Shown here one piece after another: positions 11,187 to 14,802 of a stretch of 52,109 nt of DNA. This DNA comes from Pseudomonadota bacterium (GTDB lineage Bacteria > Pseudomonadota > Alphaproteobacteria > Rickettsiales > RGZB01). Positions within the stretch are counted from its first letter, which is position 1. The number at the start of each line of letters is the position of its first letter. Position numbers and translations under genes: made by a program. The DNA lies in the NCBI GenBank assembly GCA_010031735.1, contig RGZB01000012.1, positions 1-52,109 of the forward strand. The letters run 5' to 3'. The notes under the pieces were generated by a model. The model ran no database searches, was not told the origin of the DNA, and saw nothing but the letters and a program-made list of their open reading frames with translations.

Positions 11187-11232
11187 TTGGCGTGCCCGAT
11201 ACGACTCGAACGTACGACCCTCAGCCTAGAAG
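11187..11232 (-). repeat. 3'-half duplicate of tRNA-Arg(UCU), distal attachment-site scar
   Basis: 46 bp that match 14725-14770 with one mismatch (11226, C here against T there). It covers the tRNA from the 5' edge of the anticodon loop to the encoded CCA plus one base. The 5' half of a tRNA is absent and the sequence diverges abruptly at 11233. This is the layout left when an element integrates at the 3' end of a tRNA gene and rebuilds the tRNA at the other end. Confidence 0.9.
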
Positions 11233-11391
11233 TTTCAAAGAACGGACTCTAAACGGTTATTAGGTCTTTTTAAACCCCAAAGAATTATAGGCGTTTTAAA
11301 AATCGCAATGTGATTATTCTTTTACCGTGGGAAGGGATGTTTTTAAACCTGAACCTTGCTATAGACTTGCTAGAACAGCGACCATAAAAAA

Positions 11392-11436
11392 TGATGCGCC
11401 CGTAGGAATTCGAGCCAGCGACAACCGACTTAAAAG
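11392..11436 (-). pseudogene. Degraded tRNA 3'-half, tRNA-Lys(UUU)-like
   Basis: On the minus strand the sequence reads anticodon loop CTTTTAA (11430-11436, anticodon UUU), 3' stem strand GTCGG (11425-11429), a 5-nt variable loop, a T-arm with CTCGAAT, a 3' acceptor strand CGGGCGC (11396-11402) and ATCA in place of NCCA. The segment lengths equal those of the tRNA-Arg 3' half. The T-stem no longer pairs and no 5' half is present. Like the tRNA-Arg copy it begins at the anticodon loop, which suggests an older attachment scar. Confidence 0.5.
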
Positions 11437-11452
11437 CTTTAACTACCTACAT

Positions 11453-12130
11453 TCAGTGTGCCCGCAAGGTGAAGTTGATTGGCACAATTATCTGATAATC
11501 CACTGCATTTCTGCCTTTGTAAGCAGGGATAAAATGCCAATGCTTCACAGCATCCACCGCTGCTTCATCAAGCAGACTGAATCCGCTGGAATGCAAAATC
11601 TCAATACTTCCTGCAACGCCAATGGCGAGTACCATAACACGGAGCTGCACCGTACCCTCTTGTCCAAGCCTCCTGGCAGAGGTGGGATAGGCAGGCGGCT
11701 GATTATGCAGGTTTTCCACCTGAAATCGTGGTTCGGTAACGGCAGAATTTTTATCCCCTTCCTCGGTTCTTTCTGCAGATACTTTTGCTTTTTTTGAAGG
11801 AGTAGTTACCGTAGGTTCCTTAGGTTTTTCTGCTTCCGCCTCTTTGGGACTTACTTTTATCGGAGTGTCCGCCGGTACACTTTGTTTCGGCGGAATAGGC
11901 ACGGATTTCAGTTCTTGCTTCTGCGCAGCAACAGGAGCTTTTAAGGATGCCGCTGAAATCAACGTTACCTCAATGGGTATCTCTGGAAGCTTATCGGGCT
12001 TTAATGCAATCTGCGTGAGTGACCAGCCAACAAATAAATGAACGGCTAAGGCACCGAGGAAGGCGAATATTCGTACTTTATGCCCCTCTCCTTCCTTGGT
12101 CCACGCATCACTAGAAGGTATTGCGAACAC
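11453..12130 (-). CDS. tonB: TonB-family energy transducer
   Basis: 225 residues. One N-terminal transmembrane segment (~19-40, ending in SLTQIAL), then a long Pro/Lys/Glu-rich periplasmic linker (~60-140). The TonB C-terminal domain follows, with PPAYPTSARRLGQEGTVQLR and LDEAAVDAVKHWHFIPA (~145-215). It transmits proton-motive force to outer-membrane receptors with ExbB/ExbD, which are not in the window. The start overlaps the end of the receptor gene by 20 nt, so it is coupled to it and is likely dedicated to that receptor. The C-terminus ends 16 nt from the second tRNA scar. Confidence 0.92.
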   Translation of the reverse strand: MFAIPSSDAWTKEGEGHKVRIFAFLGALAVHLFVGWSLTQIALKPDKLPEIPIEVTLISAASLKAPVAAQKQELKSVPIPPKQSVPADTPIKVSPKEAEAEKPKEPTVTTPSKKAKVSAERTEEGDKNSAVTEPRFQVENLHNQPPAYPTSARRLGQEGTVQLRVMVLAIGVAGSIEILHSSGFSLLDEAAVDAVKHWHFIPAYKGRNAVDYQIIVPINFTLRAH

Positions 12131-14218: not shown

Positions 14219-14272
14219 TATGTACGCTTCGATCTGTTGTGAATTAAACCGTTGTGGTGTATGATTTGAACT

Positions 14273-14668
14273 ATGTCAGATTTACCGACGTTGAAAGGCC
14301 CAACCAAGCTTGTTTATGAGGTGCTTTCCAAGAAGAAAGTACCGCTGGGGGCCTATGACATCCTGGCCGCCCTTTCCAAGCACGGGGTAACCGGTCCGCC
14401 GACCATTTACAGGGCATTGGAGAAGCTGGCATCCCAAGGCCTGATTCACCGCATATCTTCTATTAATGCCTACATTATCTGCGATTGCCACCACGGCTCG
14501 CATATTTCCAGTTTCATGGTGTGCAAGAAATGTAAATCCGTTGAAGAGATAAGCGATAGAAAAGTTGAAAACGCCTTAAGAACGGCCATCAAAAATCATT
14601 CTTTTAAGATAGAGAAGGAAATGATTGAGCTAATCGGCCTATGCGAAACCTGCGCCACTACCGCTTAG
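14273..14668 (+). CDS. zur: Zinc uptake regulator Zur (Fur family)
   Basis: 131-residue Fur-family repressor. The N-terminal winged helix (~1-80) has AYDILAAL and PPTIYRALEKLASQGLIHRI. The following dimer/metal region has CDCHHGSHISSFMVCKKC, and a second cysteine pair lies at the C-terminus (LCETC). The two CxxC pairs form the structural zinc site known in the family, and the His-rich stretch is the sensing region. RIxSxNAYI after the recognition helix is closer to Zur than to Fur. Divergent from a ZnuD-like receptor with a Zur-box palindrome between, so autoregulation is likely. No znuABC genes are nearby. Confidence 0.88.
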   Translation: MSDLPTLKGPTKLVYEVLSKKKVPLGAYDILAALSKHGVTGPPTIYRALEKLASQGLIHRISSINAYIICDCHHGSHISSFMVCKKCKSVEEISDRKVENALRTAIKNHSFKIEKEMIELIGLCETCATTA

Positions 14669-14724
14669 TTAGTTAACCAATCTCTAACCCATCCAGTCTC
14701 ATACTACCTAGCGTTAATAGCGCA

Positions 14725-14770
14725 TTGGCGTGCCCGATACGACTCGAACGTACGACCCTCAGCTTAGAAG
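14725..14770 (-). repeat. 46-bp direct repeat within tRNA-Arg (proximal attachment site)
   Basis: This is the 3' half of the intact tRNA plus one base beyond CCA. It is repeated with one mismatch at 11187-11232 in the same orientation. It defines the proximal boundary of the zinc islet. Confidence 0.9.
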
Positions 14771-14802
14771 GCTGATGCTCTATCCAACTGAGCTACGGGC
14801 AC
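14726..14802 (-). tRNA. tRNA-Arg (anticodon UCU)
   Basis: 77 nt with encoded CCA. The acceptor GTGCCCG/CGGGCAC pairs perfectly. The D-stem is GCTC/GAGC, the anticodon stem TCAGC/GCTGA with loop CTTCTAA (anticodon TCT), and the T-stem GTACG/CGTAT with loop TTCGAGT. The discriminator is G. All stems pair, so the gene looks functional. Its 3' end faces the zinc islet. Confidence 0.97.

Follow-up and report, generated by a model that had tools for sequence, protein, structure and literature searches.

We identify a 3.5-kb islet at the 3' end of a tRNA-Arg(UCU) gene that carries three open reading frames (zur, a znuD-like receptor gene and tonB), and we read it, with a probability of about 0.7, as the remnant of a genomic island that inserted at this tRNA and has since lost its mobility genes, with znuD and tonB as its cargo. 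The stretch analysed (52 kb, hereafter the window) is contig C14 of a draft assembly of 2.38 Mb in 251 contigs; the genome is labeled G000, and C-numbers refer to its contigs unless another genome is stated. The relatives used for comparison belong to other families of the same order, none being from its own family or genus, and as a check of relatedness, the nearest enolase among the named genomes is 71% identical. The relevant features of the window are as follows.

10535 to 11110, minus strand: gene for an NADPH-dependent FMN reductase (Pfam FMN_red), the distal flank
11187 to 11232, minus strand: displaced 3' half of tRNA-Arg, the distal att copy, 45/46 identical to the intact copy
about 11392 to 11436, minus strand: decayed tRNA-Lys(UUU)-like 3' half, from the anticodon loop to the CCA end (alignment score of 21)
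11453 to 12130, minus strand: tonB, overlapping the end of znuD (Pfam TonB_C, 77.9 bits)
12111 to 14129, minus strand: gene for a ZnuD-like TonB-dependent receptor of 672 amino acids (Pfam plug and barrel)
14196 to 14215, no strand assigned: predicted Zur box TGTTATATTATATCATAACA, in the intergenic region of the divergent genes zur and znuD (match to the Zur motif)
14273 to 14668, plus strand: zur, encoding a Fur-family zinc-uptake regulator of 131 amino acids (Pfam FUR, 41.7 bits)
14725 to 14770, minus strand: att copy at the tRNA end, made up of the intact tRNA's 3' half and one further base (direct repeat)
14726 to 14802, minus strand: intact tRNA-Arg(UCU), the putative integration target (ARAGORN; Infernal with Rfam RF00005, 67.5 bits)
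14860 to 16577, minus strand: ftsB and eno, the conserved flank on the tRNA side, in the same order beside tRNA-Arg(UCU) in genome G083

The insertion is recorded in a 46-bp repeat that runs from the anticodon loop of the tRNA through its CCA plus one base and is present in direct orientation, the displaced 3' half sitting beyond the islet genes on the side opposite to the intact tRNA, which is the only tRNA that ARAGORN recognizes in the window. Such an arrangement is what integration into the 3' end of a tRNA would be expected to produce, and the original prediction of a tRNA-Arg segment repeated at 45/46 positions in the orientation of an integration event is borne out by both the direct repeat and the tRNA calls of ARAGORN and Infernal. 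The displaced half agrees with the resident tRNA at 44/45 bases, versus at most 39/45 for the 17 tRNA-Arg(UCU)-type genes of the order, and thus the repeat was made within this lineage, from an incoming half that matched the host's own tRNA. At the single mismatch, an anticodon-loop base, the 17 tRNAs of the order all carry the base of the intact gene, which places the change in the displaced copy. Together, the limits of the repeat and its lineage-specific match make site-specific insertion at the tRNA-Arg(UCU) 3' end, as originally proposed, a well-supported reading of the sequence. DNA searches of the whole 2.38-Mb assembly list only the copies at 11187 to 11232 and 14725 to 14770, and no third copy was found. 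A second tRNA-Arg(UCU), AT-richer and without an encoded CCA, occurs on another contig (C203, 108 to 181; L061) and might represent either mobile DNA or contamination of the bin.

The same target is unoccupied in a relative. In G083, which belongs to another family, eno, ftsB, and tRNA-Arg(UCU) are arranged as they are here, and the gene that comes next, at a distance of 31 bp from the tRNA, reads as RNase R; this tRNA-Arg(UCU) has no second tRNA piece beside it, and a search of the G083 genome for znuD returned no match. The zinc cargo is therefore absent from the orthologous site in this order-level comparison; since the far flank is RNase R in G083 and the FMN reductase here, this is an unoccupied orthologous target and not a near-identical empty site. 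The proposal that the junction would be found empty in related genomes is upheld to that extent, at the level of the order only. In another genome (G029, contig C56, just past position 3418 of L026), a long inverted repeat that includes the tRNA 3' end lies directly behind tRNA-Arg(UCU).

The contents of the islet point to zinc. The best NCBIfam match of the regulator is Zur (PRK11639; 90.8 bits, under the equivalog cutoff of 167 bits), and its closest solved structures are Zur-type Fur proteins; it displays the features of a Zur regulator, in that it belongs to the Fur family, is nearest to Zur, and has a box at a divergent promoter region. That box, TGTTATATTATATCATAACA, matches at all positions the Zur motif TRWNAYRWTATAWYRTNWCA of Escherichia coli (as quoted in PMC6103462), and it is the sole site of this kind in the window, with 0 expected from shuffles. 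The motif also occurs upstream of znuD in G061 (L017, 1412 to 1431). The receptor has ZnuD as its best NCBIfam match at 380 bits, which is under the cutoff of 950 for this exception model, and we therefore label it ZnuD-like; its only strong match among solved structures is ZnuD of Neisseria (4rdr; E value of 3.5e−55). Zinc would be its substrate, judging from its family and from the predicted control by Zur. The first possible start of tonB is a GTG, and the true start may lie further in.

By its predicted gene functions, the islet supplies the outer-membrane half of zinc uptake together with a regulator. The genes exbBD are not among the three in the islet, and contig C91 carries znuB with neighbors reading as znuC and znuA, so the module falls short of a complete uptake system, and the description of the islet as a complete metal-uptake cassette has to be dropped. 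A second Zur-like gene, 40% identical to the islet zur, resides on C177 (L299, 6572 to 8823) and is followed by genes for an ABC ATPase and a permease. A Zur-box-like sequence precedes this gene, and the ATPase shares 50% identity with its counterpart adjoining znuD in G005.

Two of the three islet genes stand apart from the chromosome in composition. The GC contents at third codon positions of znuD (44.5) and tonB (42.7) are the lowest among 47 open reading frames, the other 44 having a mean of 60.9, a standard deviation of 5.4, and a minimum of 49.7; both flanks of the islet have chromosomal composition. The zur gene is native-like (57.3), and the islet may therefore be a mosaic.

The distribution of the receptor is patchy, with 5 of 263 genomes of the order having it, and in the tree, the receptors of the order form one clade of their own (support of 100/100). 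ZnuD of G000 is 78% identical to that of G005, versus 38 to 63% for 11 other matched proteins; judged by RNase PH, G075 and G005 are about equally close to G000 (66 and 65%), yet ZnuD of G075 is only 48% identical. The simplest account would be that znuD passed from one of these lineages to another or reached them from a shared donor. A viral source of the receptor was rejected because no relatives of znuD occur in viral contigs, as was a plasmid source, the plasmid relatives being at most 43% identical and the receptors of the order forming their own clade. In G061, G262, and G075, the receptor lies amid other genes (accompanied in G061 by tonB and a ZIP-like gene and in G262 by a zur), with neither tRNA-Arg nor the islet repeat, and the zinc module is therefore not tied to tRNA-Arg(UCU). 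Zinc genes in close relatives that lack the repeat had been put forward as evidence against an islet of this kind; those that we find count against it only weakly, as they are from other families, and the closest, in G005, look island-borne too.

In G005, the znuD-tonB pair is on contig C106, along with genes reading as a CobW-like GTPase, an ABC transporter, and a Fic-like protein. This contig starts with an AlpA-like gene (54% identity over 52 residues to the AlpA-like gene of the tRNA-fMet island of G000), and past the Fic-like gene, 21 bp match part of the tRNA-fMet 3' end exactly. Contig C53 of the same genome (L289 and L301; 80561 to 101385) contains tRNA-fMet, an integrase, and genes reading as type I restriction-modification, followed by a 45-bp exact repeat of the tRNA-fMet 3' half 17 kb on and by a second integrase near the contig end, which is 55% identical to the tRNA-fMet integrase of G000; the arrangement is that of tandem tRNA-fMet islands. 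C106 may continue C53, but joining was tried, and no overlap between the two was found, so the place of the zinc genes in a tRNA-fMet island of G005 is known by inference only. Elsewhere in this genome (C1; L006, 1500 to 1532), a tRNA similar to tRNA-Arg(CCU) is represented by a displaced 3' piece, probably another island scar.

An island of the same anatomy that has an integrase exists in G000 itself. On C230 (L221, 19911 to 30401), a 10.4-kb island extends from tRNA-Ala(GGC) to 45 bp that repeat the 3' half of this tRNA exactly. An integrase adjoins the copy, and the island serves as a same-genome control for the islet. Its other genes include some reading as a primase/helicase and one for a 1,328-amino-acid protein that begins like a SIR2 domain and possibly functions in anti-phage defense. 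Six integrase-family matches were detected in the genome, of which two resemble XerC/XerD by length and score; the four island integrases adjoin tRNA-Leu(CAG), tRNA-fMet, tRNA-Ala(GGC), and a tRNA-Phe-like piece, and none is at tRNA-Arg(UCU). Behind tRNA-fMet on C25 (L034, 3465 to 10931) come an integrase, an AAA/OLD-like ATPase gene, and an AlpA-like gene, and no second tRNA-fMet piece was seen in the stretch of C25 examined.

Nothing integrase-like or AlpA-like that is related to the genome's own sequences turned up inside the islet in a similarity search, and Pfam and NCBIfam recognize no conjugation or mobilization genes among its three genes. That the islet contains no recombinase, as first described, agrees with this gene content. 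The suggested search of the genome for an integrase next to a further copy of the repeat found no such copy beside any integrase.

We propose that a site-specific integrase, probably of the tyrosine type, inserted an island into the 3' end of tRNA-Arg(UCU) at the segment from the anticodon loop to the CCA. The identical 3' half carried by the element would have rebuilt the tRNA, displacing the old half to the far side, and znuD and tonB would have been brought in as cargo; the integrase and other mobility genes would have been lost later. Because no scrap of an integrase lies inside the islet, this loss is not seen directly. When zinc is plentiful, Zur would shut off both divergent transcripts; when it is scarce, the receptor, powered by the islet TonB or by another, would import zinc through the outer membrane, from where the resident ZnuABC would take it onward. 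The islet would now be a resident of the chromosome, movable at most by an integrase from elsewhere.

The alternative that survives best, although we regard it as improbable, is an assembly in two steps, in which the repeat is the scar of an older island and homologous or illegitimate recombination later brought znuD and tonB, perhaps together with zur, in between the two copies. It would fit the disparity between a native-like zur and the foreign-like znuD and tonB, the second Zur-like gene on C177, and the decayed tRNA-Lys(UUU)-like 3' half, which lies inside the islet near the distal repeat. The last of these scores 21 in alignment, compared with at most 17 in 200 shuffles and 396 segments of the window; neither ARAGORN nor Infernal detects it as a tRNA, and it has no match in 174 other genomes of the order. 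It suggests an older integration, either at the place of the islet or in the past of the element. (The piece was also considered as a folded RNA, which was rejected because it folds no better than shuffles.) The claim that exactly one functional module separates the repeat copies stands insofar as zur, the Zur box, the ZnuD-like receptor, and tonB are there, but this tRNA-Lys(UUU) half is inside as well. Against later entry of the cargo, the genes nearly fill the space between the repeats, leaving 57 bp from the zur stop to the tRNA end and 220 bp from the tonB stop to the distal copy, and the znuD-tonB pair of G005 is on a contig with island features.

Still less probable is that the islet never had an integrase and is a live satellite, moving on its pair of 46-bp repeats by an integrase borrowed in trans. 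At 45/46 identity, the repeats would remain a substrate for recombination, the genome has four island integrases, and at least two of its tRNA islands use, or begin at, the same segment from the anticodon loop to the CCA. However, those four integrases are beside other tRNAs or tRNA pieces, searches of the assembly returned neither a second islet nor a free form, and viral contigs hold no relative of znuD. A satellite moved in trans and a domesticated remnant had both been offered as explanations; we favor the remnant, and nothing that we found supports the satellite. Slightly more doubtful again is a minimal integrase-less satellite in a non-reduced lineage, consisting of an outer-membrane zinc-uptake unit and a regulator of its own, placed between tRNA-Arg(UCU) sites and moved by the integrases of other islands in trans. 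A live element with a matching integrase was rejected, since tRNA-Arg(UCU) has no integrase beside it and the repeat has no third copy. That there was no integration at all, the second tRNA 3' half having arisen by local duplication or the contig having been misjoined, is conceivable in a draft of 251 contigs but very improbable, as the copy has the anticodon loop and the CCA end as its limits, just as in the tRNA-Ala island of G000 and the tRNA-fMet island of G005, it is exactly between the copies that the two genes of most foreign appearance are found, and both flanks are chromosomal in composition.

As a genomic-island remnant, the islet is a known kind of element and does not constitute a new class; its cargo is somewhat unusual, and its host group is an unusual one. 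It had been thought to belong to no named class, but integrase-less cargo elements flanked by att sites are recognized as CIMEs (cis-mobilizable elements), which have lost the genes for integration and transfer and retained attL and attR (PMC5704250). Classical CIMEs of 1.2 to 13 kb, a range that takes in the 3.5 kb of the islet, are described in a survey of Streptococcus salivarius (PMC7563491), with cargo that includes cadmium resistance; for Streptococcus agalactiae, the same paper cites a count of 215 CIMEs at a single tRNA-Lys site among 303 genomes. The islet shares with CIMEs the att repeats at a tRNA 3' end, the absence of recombination and transfer genes, and the retention of cargo. 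By definition, however, a CIME descends from an ICE or IME; for the islet, which displays the anatomical features, "CIME-like remnant" is the safe term. Moreover, the surveyed CIMEs are from streptococci and are often in tandem with an ICE or IME, whereas the islet cargo is for outer-membrane zinc uptake.

The tRNA islands with a P4-like tyrosine integrase and AlpA, which occur in G000 itself (at tRNA-Ala, tRNA-fMet, and tRNA-Leu), have the target segment, repeat limits, and foreign cargo in common with the islet; the islet is much smaller, contains no integrase, AlpA, or replication gene, and does not have the integrase next to an att site that characterizes an intact tRNA island. The ssrA islands of Dehalococcoides (PMC3146451) similarly hold respiration or uptake cargo between repeats of an RNA-gene 3' end, some units being without an integration module, but they employ a serine recombinase, target tmRNA, and form many tandem units, unlike the single unit at a tRNA seen here. 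Its receptor family and the logic of Zur control are those of Neisseria ZnuD and of Caulobacter ZnuK and ZnuL (PMC4176598), from which the islet receptor differs by the tonB of its own that is adjacent and by being a predicted ZnuD-like protein under the NCBIfam ZnuD cutoff. A word-based literature search, to which most subscription papers are outside the scope and which is thus weak evidence, found no paper on tRNA-borne ZnuD islands.

The islet presents nutrient-metal acquisition (receptor, TonB, and Zur) as tRNA-targeted cargo in an order in which most of the listed genomes are small. The patchiness of the receptor between families, with ZnuABC located elsewhere in the chromosome, suggests that what is traded is the outer-membrane step. 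The genome also offers a worked case in which the residue of an island, its cargo intact, exists alongside an integrase-bearing island of the same anatomy. One other tRNA-derived sequence was noted in the window, at 38687 to 38710 on the minus strand, where 24 bp in the linker of a cheB-like gene match exactly the 3' end of tRNA-Thr(GGU) (positions 52 to 75), with an E value that is low for such a location.
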